Assembly: GCA_944321125.1 (NCBI GenBank)
Contig: CALUKD010000003.1
Location: 186,001 to 250,000 of the forward strand
Length of the DNA stretch: 64,000 nucleotides
Source: Candidatus Butyricimonas faecavium
GTDB taxonomy: Bacteria > Bacteroidota > Bacteroidia > Bacteroidales > Marinifilaceae
Reading direction: 5' to 3'
Below, one piece after another: positions 15,823-30,755 of this stretch. The notes under the pieces are model-generated. The model was not told the origin of the DNA and ran no database searches. It saw only the letters and a program-made list of their open reading frames with translations. Numbering within the stretch: the first letter of the stretch is position 1; every line of letters begins with the position of its first letter. A program made the position numbers and the translations under genes.

Positions 15823-15894
15823 GGTCCGTTCGTCTAGGGGCTAGGACGCAAGATTCTCATTCTTGTAACACGGGTTCGATTCCCGTACGGACTA
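15823..15894 (+). tRNA. tRNA-Glu (anticodon CTC)
   Basis: A 72-base cloverleaf: acceptor GGTCCGT/ACGGACT with a G-U first pair, anticodon stem CAAGA/TCTTG around loop TTCTCAT (anticodon CTC, reads GAG), T-stem ACGGG/CCCGT with loop TTCGATT. The CCA is not encoded (genomic ACC follows). It is the first of three tandem copies. Confidence 0.95.
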
Positions 15895-15916
15895 CCGAGA
15901 TTTTAGTGGGTTTTAT

Positions 15917-15988
15917 GGTCCGTTCGTCTAGGGGTTAGGACGCAAGATTTTCATTCTTGTAACACGAGTTCGATTCTCGTACGGACTA
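15917..15988 (+). tRNA. tRNA-Glu (anticodon TTC), copy 1
   Basis: Same fold as the preceding tRNA, with loop TTTTCAT (anticodon TTC, reads GAA/GAG). The T-stem is ACGAG/CTCGT, a compensated A-T in place of the G-C pair in the CTC copy. Identical to the next gene. Confidence 0.95.
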
Positions 15989-16010
15989 CCGAGATTTTAG
16001 TGGGTTTTAT

Positions 16011-16082
16011 GGTCCGTTCGTCTAGGGGTTAGGACGCAAGATTTTCATTCTTGTAACACGAGTTCGATTCTCGTACGGACTA
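16011..16082 (+). tRNA. tRNA-Glu (anticodon TTC), copy 2
   Basis: Base-for-base identical to the tRNA at 15917-15988, including loop TTTTCAT and T-stem ACGAG/CTCGT. It ends 28 bases before rpsT, with no terminator between, so the cluster and rpsT may share a transcript. Confidence 0.95.
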
Positions 16083-16110
16083 CAAAGTTGAATTAAATTA
16101 ATTTGTAGAG

Positions 16111-21468: not shown

Positions 21469-23004
21469 TCATCCACCCCATCCGTCTTTGTCAAGACTGC
21501 GATATTGTATCGCTTCGGCTATATATTGCGGGGTAATCTTTTCATTGTGGTCCAGATCGGCAATCGTTCGAGACAATTTGATGATTCGGTCGTAAGCCCG
21601 AGCTGAAAGTCCGAAACGTTGCATGGCAATTTTTAGTAACGCAATACATTTATCATCCAAAGGACAATACTTTTTAAGTAATGGGGAGGTCATTTGTGCA
21701 TTACAATAAATCCCCGGGTAAGATTGGAAGCGTTGGGTTTGGATAGTCCGGGCTGCGATCACTCTAGCTCGAACAATGGAGCTTGGTTCACTATCCGAGG
21801 AATTCGAAATTTTATCAAGTTCTACGGGGATCACTTCAATATGTATGTCAATCCGGTCGAGTAAAGGGCCGGATATTTTTGATAAGTATTTTTGGACCGC
21901 TCCAGGAGGACAACTACACTCCTTTGTAGGATGGTTATAATATCCGCAGGGACAAGGATTCATGGAAGCGACCAACATGATGTTAGCTGGATATTCCACG
22001 CTAAACTTGGAACGGCTGATCATAATCTTCCGATCTTCAAGTGGTTGTCTCAATACTTCTAGTACTGCCCGGCGAAATTCGGGAAGTTCGTCTAGAAATA
22101 AGATTCCATGATGGGCAAGTGATATTTCTCCCGGTTGGGGCCAAGAGCCTCCGCCAACAAGTGCGACATCAGATATGGTATGATGTGGCGAACGGAAAGG
22201 ACGGGAGGTAATTAAGGAGTGATTGTTTTGGATTTTCCCCGCGACGGAATGAATTTTTGTCGTTTCTAGGGCCTCTTCGATTGTCATGGGTGGGAGAATT
22301 GTCGGTAATCTTCGGGCCAGCATGGTTTTTCCGGAACCTGGGGAACCGATCATAATCATGTTATGTCCACCTGCTGCGGCAACTTCCATTGCACGCTTCA
22401 CGTTTTCTTGTCCTTTCACGTCTTTAAAATCAAGTAAATCATTATCGGGAAACGCCGTCATGGCTTGTTGATCAAAAGAAATGGGCGAGAAGTCTTTTTC
22501 TTGTTTTAGAAAAGTGATTACTTCATTCAGATGATGAAAGCCGTAAACTTCAATATCTTGAACAACAGCAGCTTCGTTAGCATTTTGGTAGGGCAAAAGG
22601 ATTCCTTTAAAACCTTCTTTTTTGGCATGTATGGCGATGGGAAGTACCCCTTTGACCGCTTGAAGGCTACCATCTAATGACAATTCTCCCAAGATTAAGT
22701 ATTTATCCAGTTGTGCATTAGGTAGCTGATCATTAGCTGCGAGAATTCCAATAGCCAACGGTAAGTCGAAAGATGACCCTTCTTTCTTTACATCAGCAGG
22801 GGCCATATTAATAATTACTCGTTTACCTGGGATTTTTAACCCTATCTCCCGGAGGGCAGAATCAATTCTTTGTTGACTTTCTTTTACTGCGTTATCAGGC
22901 AAGCCGACAATAATGAATTTCGCACCCCAAAGAATATTAACTTCGATCGTGATGGTTAAAGCATTGATTCCGTACACTGCACCCCCGAAAATTTTAACTA
23001 ACAT
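21469..23004 (-). CDS. comM: YifB/ComM-family magnesium-chelatase-like AAA+ ATPase
   Basis: The 511-residue product has an N-terminal Lon-protease-like fold (IFGGAVYGINALTITIEV; NMAPADVKKEGSSFDLPLAI) and an Mg-chelatase-type AAA+ core with Walker A GSPGSGKTMLARRL and Walker B FLDELPEF, followed by the C-terminal helical domain. A cysteine-rich stretch NPCPCGYYNHPTKECSCPPG lies mid-protein. ComM is a branch-migration helicase helping natural transformation in Vibrio; the Bacteroidota role has not been shown. It is complete and full length. Confidence 0.92.
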   Translation of the reverse strand: MLVKIFGGAVYGINALTITIEVNILWGAKFIIVGLPDNAVKESQQRIDSALREIGLKIPGKRVIINMAPADVKKEGSSFDLPLAIGILAANDQLPNAQLDKYLILGELSLDGSLQAVKGVLPIAIHAKKEGFKGILLPYQNANEAAVVQDIEVYGFHHLNEVITFLKQEKDFSPISFDQQAMTAFPDNDLLDFKDVKGQENVKRAMEVAAAGGHNMIMIGSPGSGKTMLARRLPTILPPMTIEEALETTKIHSVAGKIQNNHSLITSRPFRSPHHTISDVALVGGGSWPQPGEISLAHHGILFLDELPEFRRAVLEVLRQPLEDRKIMISRSKFSVEYPANIMLVASMNPCPCGYYNHPTKECSCPPGAVQKYLSKISGPLLDRIDIHIEVIPVELDKISNSSDSEPSSIVRARVIAARTIQTQRFQSYPGIYCNAQMTSPLLKKYCPLDDKCIALLKIAMQRFGLSARAYDRIIKLSRTIADLDHNEKITPQYIAEAIQYRSLDKDGWGG

Positions 23005-23077
23005 ACCGTCTGAGCTTATGTTTCACATACAAGCGTGTAAGTTAGGATTATTTTGCAGGAAAACAATGCAAAATAGG

Positions 23078-23839
23078 TTATTTTTTGCGATCTATTTTTT
23101 CGAGAAACACCTTCTCCCCGTTGAATACGGCATAACTGAAATGCGTAATCCAATCTCCCGTGTTGATATAGTGGCTATTGGGTGCGAGTTCAAGGTAGAG
23201 AGGTAAATGGCGATGGCCGAAAATGAAATAATCCACGTGGTGTTCTTTTAAGATATTCCTGCAATAAATGACAATTTCTTCCTTGTCATCTCCCAAGTAA
23301 CCTCTAGCCTCTATTTTTCCGTTTCCTTTCAACCGAGAATGGGATGACCATTTATTGGCTAAAACGATTCCCCAGTCGGGATGGATAAATCGGAAGCATT
23401 TTTGTAAAAAACGATTGTGAAAAGCATTACGTAAGAAAAGGTATCCTTTATCATTCGGATTTAGACCGTCACCATGTCCGATAAGGAAAGACTTTCCGTT
23501 TATCGTGGTTTCCTGTATGGAAGTATGTAGGATGACGCCACACTCTTTTGCCAAGTAGTCGAAAGCCCAGATATCGTGGTTTCCTGTAAAGAAATGTACC
23601 TTAATCCCTTGATCCGTGAAATGGGTTAGTTCGGCAAGAAAGCGTACATGACCTTTGGGTACGACGTATTTGTACTCAAACCAAAAGTCAAACATATCAC
23701 CAAGCAGGTAAAGCTCTGAGCAATCAGGTTTGATGCTTTCTAAAAACTCTACGAGCATAATTTCTCTCTCCCGATTATCTTTCAATAGTTTGGCACCTAA
23801 GTGTGCGTCTGAAAGAAAATAAACTTTCTTACCCTGCAT
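23078..23839 (-). CDS. lpxH: UDP-2,3-diacylglucosamine diphosphatase, LpxH type
   Basis: LpxH makes lipid X (2,3-diacylglucosamine 1-phosphate) in lipid A synthesis. The ATG at 23839 gives MQGKKVYFLSDAHLG; a TTG at 23857 is an alternative. The 253-residue product has the calcineurin-like metallophosphoesterase motifs in order: SDAHLG, GDMFDFWF, GNHDIW, LIGHGDGL and FGHRHLP. Family assignment to LpxH rather than a general phosphoesterase rests on these spacings and the length. It lies 23 bases downstream of the thioredoxin-fold lipoprotein. Confidence 0.85.
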   Translation of the reverse strand: MQGKKVYFLSDAHLGAKLLKDNREREIMLVEFLESIKPDCSELYLLGDMFDFWFEYKYVVPKGHVRFLAELTHFTDQGIKVHFFTGNHDIWAFDYLAKECGVILHTSIQETTINGKSFLIGHGDGLNPNDKGYLFLRNAFHNRFLQKCFRFIHPDWGIVLANKWSSHSRLKGNGKIEARGYLGDDKEEIVIYCRNILKEHHVDYFIFGHRHLPLYLELAPNSHYINTGDWITHFSYAVFNGEKVFLEKIDRKK

Positions 23840-23862
23840 GATGATATGTTCGTCCAATATAA

Positions 23863-25023
23863 TTATTTTTTCAACAAGTCGTTCAAACGGTCTTCCAAAC
23901 GGCTACCATACAAATTTTTACCGACAATTTCTTTCTTCTGGTTAATGATGTAATTTGCTGGAATACTCTTCACGTTCCAAGTCGAGGCAGCCCGACTCTG
24001 TAACGCTCCTTCATCCCATACGCAAATCCAATTGATCTTGTTCGTTTTTACTACATCTTCCCAGAGAAGTCTGTTTTTATCCAAACAAACCATGTAGATT
24101 TCCACTCCCCGGTTTTTAAATTTGTTGTACACGCTTTTCATCTGGTTAATGTACTCTTGGCTCTCTTTGGCTGTAATCAGCCCGAAGTCAAGCACGATGA
24201 GTTTTGATTTGAGAGAGTTTAGTGAAATATCCTTGCCATTTACATCTGGTAAATTAATATCCGGTAATGAACCTTCCGAGTTATTAATCACGGCTGCTAG
24301 CTGCTGGTTGCGGATAGCTTGGGATATTTGTTTCAGGTGATTCATGATTGCCTTTGTGTATTGAGATTCGGGATAAAGGGCTGTTAAGGATGATGCCACT
24401 ACTTTAAAATAATGAAGGTCTTCGAATTCGTCCATCACTCCGATATTATCATCGATCTTTTGATAAAGAGCGTAATAAGACGCCGGAGAGGTGGCGTGTT
24501 TAATGATGAAGTCACGGGTAAAGCTGATCTGTTTGTTTATTGCTTCTTCCCATGCTTTACTATATTCTTGGCGTTGAGCATCGTACTCGGTTCCTTGCGG
24601 GAGGGCTTGGTAAGATCTCTTCAGAGAATCCGTCAACGTAATGGTACGGGTAATTTGGAAATTTAGGAGTTTGATCCATAACGAGTTTTCAGAACCGTCT
24701 ACCCAGTAGTTATTTTTTATGTCATTCAGCGTACCGCTGACTTCAAGCACCTCATTCGGACTAGCGATCAAAATCACTTGTTCATTGTTAGAAAATCTTA
24801 AAGAATAAAATGTCGGGAGTTCAATGTCAAGTTTAAATTTAAACTCCCCGTTTTTGTTAATTTTTGTTGAATCGATAGTTTTTCTTGAACTTACATCTAT
24901 TTGTTCCAGATATACTTTCGTGTTGGCTGCATCTTTGATGGCTCCTGTAATTTCGACATTCGTCTTTTTACTACAGGATGCAATAAGAACTACAAGTAGT
25001 CCAAGTAATAGTATTTTTCTCAT
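23863..25023 (-). CDS. DUF4369/thioredoxin-fold lipoprotein lacking CxxC
   Basis: The 386-residue product starts with a lipoprotein signal (MRKILLLGLLVVLIASCSKK, lipid-bearing Cys at 17), then a DUF4369-like domain (GAIKDAANTKVYLEQID; residues about 25-110), a helical linker and a C-terminal AhpC/TlpA thioredoxin fold (LPDINLPDVNGKDISLNSLK). Where TlpA proteins have WCxxC, this one reads LDFGLITAKESQEY, with no cysteine, so it cannot act as a dithiol oxidoreductase. It may serve as a binding or scaffold protein in the periplasm. It shares strand and close spacing with lpxH. Confidence 0.82.
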   Translation of the reverse strand: MRKILLLGLLVVLIASCSKKTNVEITGAIKDAANTKVYLEQIDVSSRKTIDSTKINKNGEFKFKLDIELPTFYSLRFSNNEQVILIASPNEVLEVSGTLNDIKNNYWVDGSENSLWIKLLNFQITRTITLTDSLKRSYQALPQGTEYDAQRQEYSKAWEEAINKQISFTRDFIIKHATSPASYYALYQKIDDNIGVMDEFEDLHYFKVVASSLTALYPESQYTKAIMNHLKQISQAIRNQQLAAVINNSEGSLPDINLPDVNGKDISLNSLKSKLIVLDFGLITAKESQEYINQMKSVYNKFKNRGVEIYMVCLDKNRLLWEDVVKTNKINWICVWDEGALQSRAASTWNVKSIPANYIINQKKEIVGKNLYGSRLEDRLNDLLKK

Positions 25024-25184
25024 AATTTGTTGGAATGATATAAATAATCTACATCTTGATTTATGAAGTTCGAAAGTAATACTTTTTTTCTATTTTTTAC
25101 ATCGTCGGCCCAGATTTTGAATAAAAAAACCGTTAATTAATTGTTAAGGGTGTATTCTGGAGAATCGAAAATTGAAAATTATTT

Positions 25185-25192
25185 TACTTTTG
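25185..25192 (+). promoter_or_regulatory. -7 element of the metal-handling module
   Basis: TACTTTTG is an exact TAnnTTTG match ending 6 bases before the ATG at 25199. Transcription would begin within a few bases of the start codon, so the message is probably leaderless or nearly so. No convincing -33 element is seen. Confidence 0.5.
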
Positions 25193-25198
25193 CAAACG

Positions 25199-25624
25199 AT
25201 GAAGCAGAAAAAATTGAATATACCGGCACTTTTATTACTGTTCATTTTTTTATTGGGTACAGTAGGTGTGAATGTGAGTCGGGTCTCTTGCCAGCGTTGC
25301 CAAGAAACTTACTTGCACGTGATGGTTATTCCCGAGGACATCCCGTGTCCGTGTACACATGGTTGTTTCTGTTGTCACCAAAACTGTCACAATGCGCATA
25401 AGAAAAATTGTGATAATGCGAAACAAGAACATACTTATTACAAAGTAGCCGGTGATTGGACAATGTCCCATTTTGAGATACAATTCTGTGATATGGTGCA
25501 GGAGTGTAATTTCATGATGTTTTTACCGGATACGGTTATTTCTAATGTAAAACCTTTTAATTCTCCTATTGCATACATAGATATGTCTCCGCCCTTGGAG
25601 TTACTATGTATTTTTCGTTGTTGA
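25199..25624 (+). CDS. Exported Cys/His-rich protein, HYC_CC_PP-like
   Basis: The true start is the ATG at 25199; a TTG at 25172 is in frame but lies before the promoter box. The 141-residue product has a signal anchor (residues 8-24), then 13 cysteines after residue 30, including CQRC at 31-34 and the cluster CPCTHGCFCCHQNCHNAH (50-67), and ends MSPPLELLCIFRC. The PP-x-LL-C-x-FR ending resembles the small Bacteroidota HYC_CC_PP proteins found near metal-linked TonB receptors. Function is unknown; periplasmic metal binding is the obvious inference. Confidence 0.75.
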   Translation: MKQKKLNIPALLLLFIFLLGTVGVNVSRVSCQRCQETYLHVMVIPEDIPCPCTHGCFCCHQNCHNAHKKNCDNAKQEHTYYKVAGDWTMSHFEIQFCDMVQECNFMMFLPDTVISNVKPFNSPIAYIDMSPPLELLCIFRC

Positions 25625-25793
25625 TTAAATTTTGATCCGTGATGAAGATGCTTTAAAAGTATCTTTCGACGAGTCGTGTGTATGCGCCTGACTTGACTGA
25701 AACATTATTTAAAATTTAATCAAGAGAGAACGTGTTCCGTGGCATTGGATAAAAGAAGTATCCCGGCGCGTTCCAGAAAATTGTGGAATCTAT

Positions 25794-28082
25794 ATGAGAA
25801 ATTTGTTCATTATAATGTGTTTAATTGCCTCTGTTGGTTTACAGGCACAGACCATAAAAGGGCGTGTCATGGAAGAAACGGAAGATGGGGAGGTGGCATT
25901 ACCCGGGGCGAATGTTTACTGGGTAGGAACTTCGAAAGGGGCTGTTTCGGATGCGAACGGGGAATTTAAAATTAAGTGGGAAAAGGTTGGGAAGTTGGTT
26001 GTTAGTTTTATCGGGTATGGGTCGGATACGATAGAGGTAAAATCTACGGATAAATTCGTGACCTGCACGTTGAAGTCGGGGGAACAGTTGGACGAGGTGA
26101 GTGTGGCTGCCCGTAAACAGAGTACCGTGATGTCAACACAGGGACCTTTGATCGAACAATTAATCACGGGTGAAGAGTTGTGTAAAGCGGCTTGTTGTAA
26201 TTTGGGCGAGAGTTTCGAGACGAATGCCTCGGTTGACGTGTCGTATGCTGATGCGGTGACGGGTGCGAAGCAAATCCAGCTATTGGGATTGACTGGAAAA
26301 TACGTACAAATGATGACTGAGAATATGCCTAATTTCCGAGGATTGGCCTCTTTGTACGGTTTGACTTATATTCCGGGTCCTTGGATGTCCGCAATCTCCG
26401 TGTCAAAAGGAACGGGATCGGTGATTAACGGTTACGAATCAATGGCCGGACAAATTAGTGTGGATTACAAGAAACCCCGTGATTTGGAATTGCTTTCAGC
26501 TAATGTCTTCACGAGTAGCGAGGGAATGTACGAGTTTAATTCTAATTTCAGTATCAAGTTCAATGATAAGTGGAGTACGATGTTCCTTTTGCACGGGGAT
26601 TGGATGGAAGAGCCTCATGACGGGAACAAAGATGGATTTTTGGATATGCCGGAAAAAACACAATATAACGTGATGAATCGTTGGGCGTATAAAGATGACA
26701 CTTGGTATTTGCAATTCGGAGGCAAATTCATTGATGAGGAGCGAAATGGAGGGCAAACCTCTCATGGCGGACATGCTCAGGCCGACGAGAAATACGGGTT
26801 GTATAAAATTGGAATAGATACCCGTCGTTACGAGGCTTTCTTGAAATTAGGTTACCTGATGCCCCAGTACGAGAATACGAGTATGGCAATTTTGGTGAAC
26901 TATTCTGATCACACGCAAGATTCCTATTATGGGCCGAAGATGTATAATGCCGGGCAAAAGAGTTTATTCGTGAACTACATTTATCAATCTATTTTTGGGA
27001 CAAATCCAAGCCAGATGTACTCTGCCGGGTTAAGTTTCAATTACGACAAATACGACGAAGATTTCCGTGATCCGGTTTTCAATTATGGAGAGGATATTTC
27101 TACTGACTTCATAAACATGAAACGGGAAGAACGGGTGCCGGGAGCTTTCTTCCAGTACACGGGAGAATTCTTGGATCAGCGCTTTATCGTGATGGCAGGA
27201 TTGCGCTATGATTATCACAATATCTTCGGGAGTATCTGGACTCCGCGAGCTCACATCATGTACAAGCCGGATGAGTTTACCAGCATCAAGGCCACTTTCG
27301 GTCGCGGTCTACGTACGCCGAATATCTTGGCTGAGAACAGTTATTTGTTGGCCTCTGCTGCAAACTTCTACGTGAATGGAGAGTTGTTGGGTAAGAACCC
27401 GGCTTTGCTGGACGATTTGAAGATGGAGGATTCTTGGAATTTCGGGGCTAACGTGAACCGGAAGTTCGAGGTGTTCGGGCGTATCTTGAATATCAATTTG
27501 GATTATTACCATACGAAATTCAACGACCAAGTGGTAGTTGATAATGAGACGGCATACAACAAAGTGAACTTTTACAACTTAGATGGGGATTCCTATTCGA
27601 ATTGCTACCAAGTAGAAGTGAAATACGAGTTGATACCACGTTTGGAAGCTACCTTGGCCTATCGTTACAATGACGTGAAGACAACGATTAACGGTGATTT
27701 GAAACGTACCCCTTTAACGAGCCGTTACAAGGGATTGGTGAATTTGTCATACTTCACCAACTTGAAGAAATGGCAGTTCGATTTCACTACCCAATTCAAC
27801 GGTTCCGGACGTTTGCCGGAGCAGGGAGGAATTGCCGATGAGTATCGGGTAGCTTCCCGTTTCGATGATTTCCAGATCATGAATGCACAGGTCACGAAAT
27901 ATTTCCGTTTGTGGAGTATTTATGCGGGATGTGAGAATATCGGGGATTTCACCCAAAAGAATCCGATCGTGAATTCTCATAATCCTTGGAGCGATACCTT
28001 TGACTCGTCGAAAGTGTGGGGGCCTCTTCACGGACGTAAATTTTATATCGGTTTAAGATTTGCCTTAGATCGAAAAGAATAA
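25794..28082 (+). CDS. TonB-dependent receptor, probable metal transporter
   Basis: The 762-residue product has a signal peptide (MRNLFIIMCLIASVGLQAQ), a carboxypeptidase-regulatory-like domain (TIKGRVMEETEDGEVALPGA; SFIGYGSDTI), a plug domain (LGLTGKYVQMMTENMPNFRG; GSVINGYESMAGQISVDYK) and a 22-strand-type barrel ending GRKFYIGLRFALDRKE. In the plug, three cysteines stand close together (C130, C134, C135 in GEELCKAACCNLGES). A linked HMA-domain protein downstream and a Cys-rich exported protein upstream suggest copper or another soft metal rather than a siderophore, but the ligand is inferred. Confidence 0.87.
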   Translation: MRNLFIIMCLIASVGLQAQTIKGRVMEETEDGEVALPGANVYWVGTSKGAVSDANGEFKIKWEKVGKLVVSFIGYGSDTIEVKSTDKFVTCTLKSGEQLDEVSVAARKQSTVMSTQGPLIEQLITGEELCKAACCNLGESFETNASVDVSYADAVTGAKQIQLLGLTGKYVQMMTENMPNFRGLASLYGLTYIPGPWMSAISVSKGTGSVINGYESMAGQISVDYKKPRDLELLSANVFTSSEGMYEFNSNFSIKFNDKWSTMFLLHGDWMEEPHDGNKDGFLDMPEKTQYNVMNRWAYKDDTWYLQFGGKFIDEERNGGQTSHGGHAQADEKYGLYKIGIDTRRYEAFLKLGYLMPQYENTSMAILVNYSDHTQDSYYGPKMYNAGQKSLFVNYIYQSIFGTNPSQMYSAGLSFNYDKYDEDFRDPVFNYGEDISTDFINMKREERVPGAFFQYTGEFLDQRFIVMAGLRYDYHNIFGSIWTPRAHIMYKPDEFTSIKATFGRGLRTPNILAENSYLLASAANFYVNGELLGKNPALLDDLKMEDSWNFGANVNRKFEVFGRILNINLDYYHTKFNDQVVVDNETAYNKVNFYNLDGDSYSNCYQVEVKYELIPRLEATLAYRYNDVKTTINGDLKRTPLTSRYKGLVNLSYFTNLKKWQFDFTTQFNGSGRLPEQGGIADEYRVASRFDDFQIMNAQVTKYFRLWSIYAGCENIGDFTQKNPIVNSHNPWSDTFDSSKVWGPLHGRKFYIGLRFALDRKE

Positions 28083-28141
28083 TCAGTCAATAAAATAATT
28101 ACTTTTGAAAAACAATGTTTTTAATAACTAATACATTTACT

Positions 28142-28678
28142 ATGAAGACGATAAAAATTTTATTCACGCTGGCAGTGTTTGTTATGATGGGTTTAACCGT
28201 GAGTGCCCAGACTAAAAAAGATACAACCGTTATTTTTAAAGTTGGTATACATTGCCCTTCTTGCAAGGCTAAACTGGATAAAAATATGCCTTTTGAGAAA
28301 GGAATCAAGGATTATAAGTTGAACATGAAGGATTCAACCGTGCTGATTTCTTTCCGTGCCGACAAAAATTCAGTTGAGGCGTTGAGGGCTGCTATCGAAC
28401 GTCACGACGTGAAAGTGATAGGAATGTGCGATAAAGACGGTAAGTTAATGAAATGTGGTAAAGCACATAAATGTTGCAAAGAAGGGAATAAAGAAGTTTG
28501 CAAGGGGAATTGCGATGAGAAGCATAATTGCAGCGGTACTTGCGGGCAAAGTTGTGGAGAGAAAAAGTGTGATCAGAACTGCGAATCGAAGGATAGTAAA
28601 TGTGAAGGGGAATGCGGTGATAATTGCTGTTCCAAAACAGGCAAAACCGACGAGTGCTGCAAGAATAAGAAGAAGTAA
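28142..28678 (+). CDS. Exported HMA-domain protein with 17-cysteine tail
   Basis: The ATG at 28142 gives a signal peptide (MKTIKILFTLAVFVMMGLTV, then SAQ). Residues 30-92 form a heavy-metal-associated ferredoxin-like domain with its metal-binding loop GIHCPSC (C38, C41). The remaining 85 residues are rich in Cys, Lys, Gly and Glu and hold 17 cysteines (96 to 173) in patterns such as CCKEGNKEVCKGNC and GDNCC, resembling a metallothionein. The 178-residue protein probably binds copper or similar ions in the periplasm. It ends the module, with a strong terminator behind it. Confidence 0.85.
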   Translation: MKTIKILFTLAVFVMMGLTVSAQTKKDTTVIFKVGIHCPSCKAKLDKNMPFEKGIKDYKLNMKDSTVLISFRADKNSVEALRAAIERHDVKVIGMCDKDGKLMKCGKAHKCCKEGNKEVCKGNCDEKHNCSGTCGQSCGEKKCDQNCESKDSKCEGECGDNCCSKTGKTDECCKNKKK

Positions 28679-28696
28679 GGATTTCTAAGTTGTACG

Positions 28697-28724
28697 AAAA
28701 ACGGTAGCGGAAGCTACCGTTTTT
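28697..28724. terminator. Bidirectional terminator
   Basis: AAAAACGGTAGC (28697-28708) and GCTACCGTTTTT (28713-28724) pair fully around loop GGAA, with T-runs on both strands. It serves the HMA gene and the converging kinase gene. Confidence 0.9.
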
Positions 28725-28731
28725 TTTTGTA

Positions 28732-29814
28732 TTATTGATTTAGAATAAATTGGTTCATCTTGTCGAATTGTTGTTCCATACCCTGTAACAATTTTACTTG
28801 AACTTTAGCCCGTTGTAAGTTATGTTCGGGGTAAGTAATCGGGTAATAATGATCCCCATCTAGATAATCCGTCAAAAAACGAACGGCTTGCAGGTAGGTC
28901 ATCAACGTGCATCCTTGTGCAAGGGTCTTTTTCTCCTTGAGCGTGAAAAGATGCTTTGCTTTTTCCATAAATCCAGCAGTGAAGGCTTCGAAATAGTCCA
29001 TGTTAAAATGTACTTCATCAACGCTACGTGTTTCCTCTCCGGCAGTGTTGCAAGACGAACGGATAGCGTCACCGAAGTCGTAATGCACGATCCCCGGCAT
29101 TACGGTGTCCAGATCGATCACGCATAATGGGTGATCATTGTGGTCGAACAAAAGGTTATTTGCTTTCGTGTCATTGTGCGTAACCCGGAGTGGTAGAATC
29201 CCCTCGTCTTTCATCCGTTGTAATTCCAGCATCTCGTTATCGAATTTTTTCAAGTATTCGAGTAGTTCCTTGCTTGCCTCGACCCGTTCTGGTTCAGCCT
29301 TGGCTAAGGCTTCTTTTAATTCCCGTTGACGGCGGGGAACATTATGGAAAAGCGGGATTGTCTCGATCAACAACTTTGCGTCGAAATCGGAAATCCTGTT
29401 TTCGAATTCTCCAAATCCAATACCCACTTGGTAAGCGATCTGCGAATCCGGGATAACATCATAACTCTTTGATCCTTTGATAAAGAGTGATAGAGTCCAG
29501 TAGTTTCCCTCGTAATCCTTGTAGTAAGCGTTTCCTTTGTCCGTGTAAAAATACGTGATGTATTTCCTAGTGATATCGCTTACTTTATACCGGATAAGCC
29601 GGTTGCGGATATGTCCGCATACCAATTCTTTGTTTCGTACCAGTTTTGGGATGTCCTTGAACACTTTGCCATTGATTCTTTGGAGAATGTACTCGACATC
29701 CTCGTCTACTTTCACCAGATAGGTATCATTAATATGACCAGAACCATACGGTGTAGCGGATATAAACCGCCCGCTCGATACGAACGTGTCGTAAATTCTC
29801 TTCAGTTTGTCCAT
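28732..29814 (-). CDS. NahK-like N-acetylhexosamine 1-kinase (APH fold)
   Basis: The 360-residue product is a phosphotransferase of the aminoglycoside-kinase fold. Its N-terminus (PYGSGHINDTYLVKVDEDVE, then YILQRINGKVF), catalytic loop RVTHNDTKANNLLFD, metal motif VIDLDTVMPGIVHYDFGD and ending TYPEHNLQRAKVQVKLLQGM follow Bifidobacterium NahK almost element by element, including length (359). NahK phosphorylates GlcNAc and GalNAc at C1. The next gene in the operon is a sugar nucleotidyltransferase, so the pair probably salvages free amino sugars into UDP-sugars. The exact sugar is not proven. Confidence 0.82.
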   Translation of the reverse strand: MDKLKRIYDTFVSSGRFISATPYGSGHINDTYLVKVDEDVEYILQRINGKVFKDIPKLVRNKELVCGHIRNRLIRYKVSDITRKYITYFYTDKGNAYYKDYEGNYWTLSLFIKGSKSYDVIPDSQIAYQVGIGFGEFENRISDFDAKLLIETIPLFHNVPRRQRELKEALAKAEPERVEASKELLEYLKKFDNEMLELQRMKDEGILPLRVTHNDTKANNLLFDHNDHPLCVIDLDTVMPGIVHYDFGDAIRSSCNTAGEETRSVDEVHFNMDYFEAFTAGFMEKAKHLFTLKEKKTLAQGCTLMTYLQAVRFLTDYLDGDHYYPITYPEHNLQRAKVQVKLLQGMEQQFDKMNQFILNQ

Positions 29815-29852
29815 GCTTAGTTGTTTTTTATGTTTACCCGTTTTTATGTTGT

Positions 29853-30755
29853 TTACTGCCCCATGTCAGTATATAATCCTTCTCCGTCAAATTTCTGTAA
29901 GGCATTGTTCACCAGCTCAGTGTCTTCTTTGTACGTCACGCCGAACCATTGGGCATTGGTATTTAAGACTTTTACTTTCACGGCCTTTTGCTTGATGAGT
30001 TCGTCTACCACGAAAGGTATATAAATCTCCGCTTTGGGGTTTTCGCTGTTCTTGTGGTAGAATTCGATAAACTGTTTTTCGATTTCCTCAAAAAGCATGG
30101 GCGAAAATCCCCAGAAATTCATGGAAACCACGTCATCTTCATGCAGTACGACACCTGAGTTTAGATCTTTAATCACGTCATTTTCCCGGCCAATTTTCGT
30201 GCATTCGGTGATACTCGTCAAGAAGTTGTTTTCGTCTACCGTACATATTCCTCTCGATACTGTCCCATTTTCGGATAGGGTGGCAGCCAACCGATAACCG
30301 GCTAGGCTGAAACATCTTTCATCGGTATTGCTGGCCACGAAATCGTGCATTTTCACGAAGGCATCCCGTCCGTAAAAGTCATCAGCATTGATAGCGATAA
30401 ACGGTTCATGAATATAGTCTTTTGCAGCCCAGATGGCGTGTGCCGTTCCCCAAGGTTTCTCCCGTTGGATCGGGGGTAAATTACCGGGTAGTTGATCCAT
30501 TTCCTGAAAACAGTACACGGTTTCAACCAAGCTTTCGGCATATTTTCCCACAGCCTCTTTGAATTCGTTCTCGAAACTCCGGCGGATGATGAAAACAATC
30601 TTGTCAAATCCCGCGTGTACGGCATCATAAATTGAATAATGCAACAATGTTTTTTTGTGGGGTCCGAGTAGAGCTAGTTGTTTTAGACTCCCGAACCGAG
30701 AACCCATTCCTGCTGCCATAATGAGCAAGGTCGTTTTATTTTTCGTAGTCTCCAT
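29853..30755 (-). CDS. Sugar-1-phosphate nucleotidyltransferase
   Basis: The 300-residue product is a GT-A-type nucleotidyltransferase with the N-terminal pyrophosphorylase signature LLIMAAGMGSRFGSLKQLAL, a metal-binding AINADDFYGRDAF and GFSPMLFEEIEKQF. It lacks the left-handed beta-helix of GlmU, so it has no acetyltransferase part. The family includes uridylyltransferases for GlcNAc-1-P and GalNAc-1-P. It lies 38 bases upstream of the NahK-like kinase, and the two would turn an amino sugar into its nucleotide form. Confidence 0.83.
   Translation of the reverse strand: METTKNKTTLLIMAAGMGSRFGSLKQLALLGPHKKTLLHYSIYDAVHAGFDKIVFIIRRSFENEFKEAVGKYAESLVETVYCFQEMDQLPGNLPPIQREKPWGTAHAIWAAKDYIHEPFIAINADDFYGRDAFVKMHDFVASNTDERCFSLAGYRLAATLSENGTVSRGICTVDENNFLTSITECTKIGRENDVIKDLNSGVVLHEDDVVSMNFWGFSPMLFEEIEKQFIEFYHKNSENPKAEIYIPFVVDELIKQKAVKVKVLNTNAQWFGVTYKEDTELVNNALQKFDGEGLYTDMGQ

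Follow-up and report, generated by a model that had tools for sequence, protein, structure and literature searches.

The window analysed here is a stretch of 64,000 nucleotides from Candidatus Butyricimonas faecavium, and it contains a compact unit of three genes (Table 1). As the initial annotation had claimed, these genes are co-directional and are bounded by a -7 box and a strong terminator, and inspection of the sequence recovered all of the cysteines attributed to them: six in residues 50–63 of the gene 1 protein (C50, C52, C56, C58, C59 and C63), three in the receptor plug, and an HMA domain with a CPSC motif fused to a tail carrying 17 cysteines in 78 residues (C96–C173; 16 fall in residues 101–178, plus C96). 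A further pair, C31xxC34, is present in gene 1. An Rfam scan of positions 25000–28900 gave no match. In close pairs, dN/dS was 0.08 for gene 1, 0.01–0.03 for the receptor and 0.05–0.06 for the HMA domain, while the value for the Cys tail, 0.01–0.03, was obtained where dS is large. These values place all three genes, the tail included, under purifying selection; the cysteine pattern is therefore neither a chance occurrence nor the product of a wrong reading frame.

Table 1. Features of the three-gene unit (positions in the window)
Feature	Position	Strand	Remarks
-7 promoter box TACTTTTG (consensus TAnnTTTG)	25185..25192	+	Sequence; ends 6 nt before ATG at 25199
Gene 1, Cys/His-rich small protein, 141 aa	25199..25624	+	Hydrophobic N-terminus, HYC_CC_PP-like
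C-terminal PPLELLCIFRC plus stop codon	25589..25624	+	Pro-Pro plus C-terminal motif common to HYC_CC_PP proteins
Leader gap, gene 1 to receptor, 169 nt	25625..25793	+	
Two adjacent stem-loops	25638..25693	+	First one 13 nt past gene 1 stop; prediction and covariation
Gene 2, TonB-dependent receptor, 762 aa	25794..28082	+	Signal peptide, carboxypeptidase-regulatory-like domain, plug, barrel
C130-KAA-C134-C135 at plug start	26181..26198	+	AACCNL signature
Gene 3, exported HMA protein, 178 aa	28142..28678	+	
HMA domain, residues 32–87, with CPSC (C38-P-S-C41)	28235..28402	+	PF00403, 35.2 bits vs cut-off 24.8
Cys-rich tail, 17 Cys in residues 96–173	28427..28660	+	
Intrinsic terminator at end of unit	28696..28735	+	13-bp hairpin plus T run, 28696–28725

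The conserved neighbourhood that the initial annotation proposed to look for exists across Bacteroidota, where a small Cys-rich gene, the receptor gene and an HMA gene are kept in this order. Within the host family, the receptor adjoins an HMA gene in 40/40 loci, and a small Cys-rich gene lies upstream in 36 of these; in the phylum, 51 of the 80 loci gave a match to the gene 1 profile, most of them with an adjacent HMA gene. Phylum-wide, the HMA gene is found downstream of the receptor, upstream of it, or fused to its N-terminus (loci L158, L179, L184, L185, L205, L209 and L215–L217). Moreover, five Bacteroides loci (L123, L125, L126, L127 and L132) have an HMA-bearing P-type ATPase behind the HMA gene. 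A CPC motif was seen in four of these ATPases, and the one that was scanned, from L125, is of the copper type (TIGR01511, 580 bits versus a cut-off of 397). Both the fusions and the ATPases reinforce the pairing of receptor and HMA protein. In a few Ignavibacteria/Chlorobiota-type loci, the place of HMA is taken by YHS proteins (L178, as well as L170, L182 and L195 as read by eye) or, in L183, by a Cys-rich exported HMBD protein. The site of the cassette (21469–30755 in the window; L070–L085) is much alike in the host genus and several related genera, with conserved genes for 511, 259 and 386 aa on one side and for 360 and 300 aa on the other. Such a similar chromosomal place suggests vertical inheritance. 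In marine relatives (L088–L108), several cassettes are located just 3' of a cluster of multi-cytochrome/cytochrome b-like type, and a Crp-like regulator is found in the vicinity.

In the receptor, the barrel is recognised with 91.6 bits (PF00593, cut-off 27) and the plug with 21.8 bits, slightly below its cut-off of 23.9. At the profile level, 81 of the 296 Bacteroidota genomes contain this receptor subfamily, mostly as a single copy. Among the host-family receptors found via the HMA gene, C134 and C135 are invariant (41/41) and C130 is present in 35/41; at least 15 of the 20 receptors in a phylum sample have AACCNL or SACCNL in the plug, and two more have ACCDL. Only these two samples were used to assess the invariance of the Cys pair, the 80 genome-contig loci being partly selected by the search pattern. 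Judging from ordinary plugs, the helix at the plug start would lie near the TonB box, so that a hand-over of metal from the Cys pair to the HMA protein is conceivable.

Gene 3 resembles MerP, CopZ and other HMA metallochaperones in its HMA domain with CxxC; it differs from them in scoring below the MerP cut-off (TIGR02052, 19.5 bits versus 92.55), in its 17-Cys tail and in being tied to an outer-membrane receptor. In a Pfam scan, the tail matched no family, metallothionein or other. Within the host family, just two sister genera share the long tail with the host genus; some members of a third genus have short Cys tails, and most other members have none. The fusion of HMA domain and tail, presented initially as an unusual architecture, is real, but it is a lineage-specific addition to a standard HMA partner and not the core of the system. 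Cys- or His-rich tails on HMA partners have arisen separately elsewhere (L121, L122, L124 and L129), and Cys-rich exported third genes likewise recur independently. The tail is thus a recurrent elaboration, which plausibly serves to buffer Cu(I).

The protein encoded by gene 1 (P0001) gave no match at all to the HYC_CC_PP model (NF047658, curated cut-off 28 bits), and DUF2946 (Pfam) was detected neither in P0001 nor in 22 relatives. The HYC_CC_PP cut-off is passed by five of the ten receptor-linked relatives that were tested, and gene 1 is a divergent relative of this uncharacterised family, linked to it at the profile level via intermediate proteins. It shares with HYC_CC_PP the architecture, the operon position and the C-terminal motif. 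Gene 1 relatives have in common a hydrophobic N-terminus, a CxxC or CC region and a C-terminal motif reaching the stop codon; they usually end in Pro-Pro plus this motif, and they head metal uptake or efflux operons. The Pro-Pro (PP131-132 in gene 1) is missing in 39/99 homologues, and an [FY]xK-like element, where both are present, usually lies 44–51 residues upstream of it. A difference concerns the distance from Pro-Pro to the end of the protein: it is 9 residues in P0001, mostly at least 16 in receptor-linked relatives outside the host family, and about 15 in efflux-linked ones.

In the 296 Bacteroidota genomes, the HYC_CC_PP model gave 116 matches, of which 41 are directly upstream of this receptor; the genomes carrying HYC_CC_PP (86/296) are about as many as those carrying the receptor. 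Of the other HYC_CC_PP genes, 40 were fetched, and most of these precede pumps of the CusA/CzcA type, one of which was checked and scored 785 bits with TIGR00914 (cut-off 701); some precede HMA or other metal-domain genes, and in L254 a relative stands before a multicopper-oxidase-like gene.

From the position of the -7 box, the mRNA of gene 1 is predicted to be near-leaderless. Transcription from F. johnsoniae promoters starts 4–5 nt past the box (PMC6847099). As published baselines, 5.5% of F. psychrophilum mRNAs are leaderless (PMC9723704), and in B. thetaiotaomicron about 3.7% of 5' UTRs are shorter than 10 nt (PMC7366714). A sigma70 promoter scan is uninformative in Bacteroidota. The position of the box is kept in the host genus, and a box no more than 11 nt from the start was found in 52/95 gene 1 homologues versus 18/413 other first genes of the same loci (Fisher 2e-29, on loci that are not independent). 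The same geometry recurred in a second set, namely 28 of the 40 HYC_CC_PP genes that do not adjoin this receptor. A leaderless mRNA is not universal, since about 20 marine relatives are without a close -7 box.

The gap downstream of gene 1 is structured as well. Its two predicted stem-loops show, within the host genus, five pairs changed on both sides in a compensating manner, which reflect few independent events; 95% of cells are paired, against 34–48% when the structure is slid. A related genus has a separate compensated hairpin of its own in the gap. Receptor-linked gaps in general are just slightly above controls (pairs, p 0.03; mean z -2.0 versus -1.2, p 0.0008): they are more folded, and a clamp is less frequent in them than in non-receptor gaps. 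In the latter, mostly 70–135 nt long, a stem from the bases just past the leader stop to at or near the next start is predicted in 31/35 cases, with 30 different 5' arm sequences. Predicted pairs average 9.6 in the non-receptor gaps, as opposed to 3.8 in controls and 3.1 after shuffling (p 3e-8). The HYC_CC_PP genes of these loci (L252–L291), which mostly head CusA/CzcA-type efflux operons and have an RNA clamp from stop to start, form a candidate family of translational attenuators. Such an arrangement corresponds to the anatomy of leader peptides like CruR and CutF in Proteobacteria, and a ribosome halted at the leader end would open the stem. No clamp or stem occluding the next start was found in the window's own gap. 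Copper should shut uptake genes and open efflux genes, and a different device is thus to be expected in the uptake operon of the window; for an uptake operon, CruR employs Rho-dependent termination (PMC9426467).

The closest likeness to the whole unit is found in the copper-uptake operon cruR-crtA(bfrG)-bp2921 of Bordetella pertussis (PMC9426467, PMC12914433), in which a small exported protein with a Cys motif is likewise followed by a TonB receptor and a partner protein. CruR is about 145 aa long, has a C-terminal Pro-Pro motif and is separated from the receptor gene by 162 nt, versus 169 nt here (PMC9426467). However, its RAPP lies three residues before the end, whereas P0001 has SPP 9 residues before the end and lacks a DUF2946 match; the cruR mRNA has a 45-nt leader, unlike the near-leaderless gene 1. 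The partner protein in B. pertussis is PepSY_TM instead of an HMA protein, and CrtA is without conserved cysteines, in contrast to the invariant C134 and C135 of our receptor (PMC12914433). CutF, which leads the copper operon cutFOG of Rhodobacter capsulatus (PMC9973294), is also small and exported, and it combines a Cu motif with a proline motif at its C-terminus. Its intergenic stem-loop, covering the start region of the next gene, has a counterpart in the non-receptor, mostly efflux, HYC_CC_PP operons and not in the window's gap; gene 1 further differs from CutF in having no detectable sequence family match, in its near-leaderless start and in belonging to Bacteroidota. Overall, gene 1 has the architecture of a CruR/CutF-like leader: it stands first in a metal operon, carries a Cys metal motif and a C-terminal proline motif, and is followed by a long gap. 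It is probably a leader and a candidate nascent-chain metal sensor.

Considering all of the above, our best reading is copper import with hand-over to the periplasmic HMA protein, and the three-gene set probably imports copper across the outer membrane. We are evenly divided on the fuller proposition, in which the operon is an acquisition unit for copper (or a soft metal) and gene 1 most likely its co-translational leader. In such a scenario, the nascent chain of gene 1 would bind metal through its Cys clusters, the C-terminal Pro-Pro motif would make ribosome movement metal-dependent, and this movement would decide whether the downstream receptor and HMA protein are synthesised; by analogy with CruR, they would be expected to be made under copper scarcity. 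The receptor would then import the metal, free or chelated, with TonB energy, and the HMA protein would take it over in the periplasm via its CxxC; the donor may be the conserved Cys pair, which would sit close to the periplasmic end of the plug. In the host lineage, the Cys tail would hold extra Cu(I) in a metallothionein-like manner and act as a buffer for an organism that lacks heme-copper oxidase. It is tempting, though slightly short of even confidence, to extend this proposal to HYC_CC_PP-type genes as near-leaderless leaders across Bacteroidota, which, as nascent chains, would detect copper and control efflux operons, through a start-hiding stem, as well as uptake operons such as this one.

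Other explanations should be weighed against this scenario. Gene 1 could encode a normal exported chaperone that binds metal, periplasmic or membrane-anchored, and partners the receptor and the HMA protein; its near-leaderless start would then be incidental. The initial annotation likewise saw in gene 1 an exported metal-handling protein. This alternative agrees with the signal-like N-terminus, the Cys/His clusters and the purifying selection, yet we find it unlikely in view of the start geometry, the conservation of the C-terminal motif as far as the stop, the structured gaps and the occurrence of such genes ahead of both uptake and efflux operons; the AlphaFold model, with a mean pLDDT of 57 and an unstructured C-terminal third, is not interpretable as a fold and speaks against it as well. 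A regulatory leader is the likelier role, and gene 1 may be both, possibly acting as an exported metal-binding protein too.

The nature of the substrate also has to be considered. We infer the metal and its direction of flow, copper being suggested only by the neighbouring genes and the HMA type. No named receptor subfamily reached its cut-off. Although weak matches to siderophore and heme models exist, they are far below threshold, and TIGR01778 (OprC/TonB-copper) was not among the matches at E<=1. The receptor shares with OprC of Pseudomonas aeruginosa (PMC8610252) the TonB-receptor fold and soft-metal residues in the plug, with the difference that its Cys pair at the plug start, within a conserved CxxxCC, replaces CxxxM-HxM. 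A fold search returned a generic TonB receptor, and Foldseek ranks PfeA and BtuB beside OprC, so that the fold does not discriminate OprC from siderophore or vitamin transporters; a receptor clearly grouping with the latter was named at the outset as a result that would overturn the metal reading. Still, a siderophore, heme or cobalamin transporter merely standing beside an HMA gene is highly improbable in the face of the conserved HMA neighbourhood, the HMA fusions and the invariant plug Cys pair. Rather doubtful is a cassette for zinc, nickel or cadmium, or a mainly protective one in which the Cys tail serves as a sink. HMA domains bind Zn and Cd too, a cation diffusion facilitator-like gene is found at the related locus L139, and heme-copper oxidase is absent from all six host-genus genomes, which rules it out as the copper consumer. 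NosZ is absent from the host genus as well, so that neither enzyme accounts for a need to import copper, a point against our best reading. Against such a cassette stand the adjacent copper-type ATPase in Bacteroides and the HYC_CC_PP relatives ahead of CusA-type operons and of the multicopper-oxidase-like gene; moreover, TonB receptors normally import.

Copper import across the outer membrane is in general poorly characterised (PMC12914433), and our literature searches turned up neither a description of this cassette from Bacteroidota nor a copper leader from the phylum, nor any mention of HYC_CC_PP. As far as we have found, metal-sensing leaders of the gene 1 type are known in other bacteria and have not been described for Bacteroidota. 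A survey of RAPP/RGPP leader peptides reports copper-gene-linked ones from various lineages, Bacteroidota not being among them (PMC12992588); HYC_CC_PP-like leaders, with their different C-terminal motif, could be the counterpart missing from that survey, and our leader reading supplies a testable function for the family.

Two minor observations can be added. The host's nearest receptor paralogue (27% identity; L112:6040-8974, on contig C16 of its own genome) is preceded by a small His-rich membrane-type ORF of 120 aa (L112:8612-8974), possibly making a second metal-uptake pair with a leader-like gene. Upstream in the window, at 15823–16083, there are three tandem tRNA-Glu genes with the anticodons CTC, TTC and TTC.
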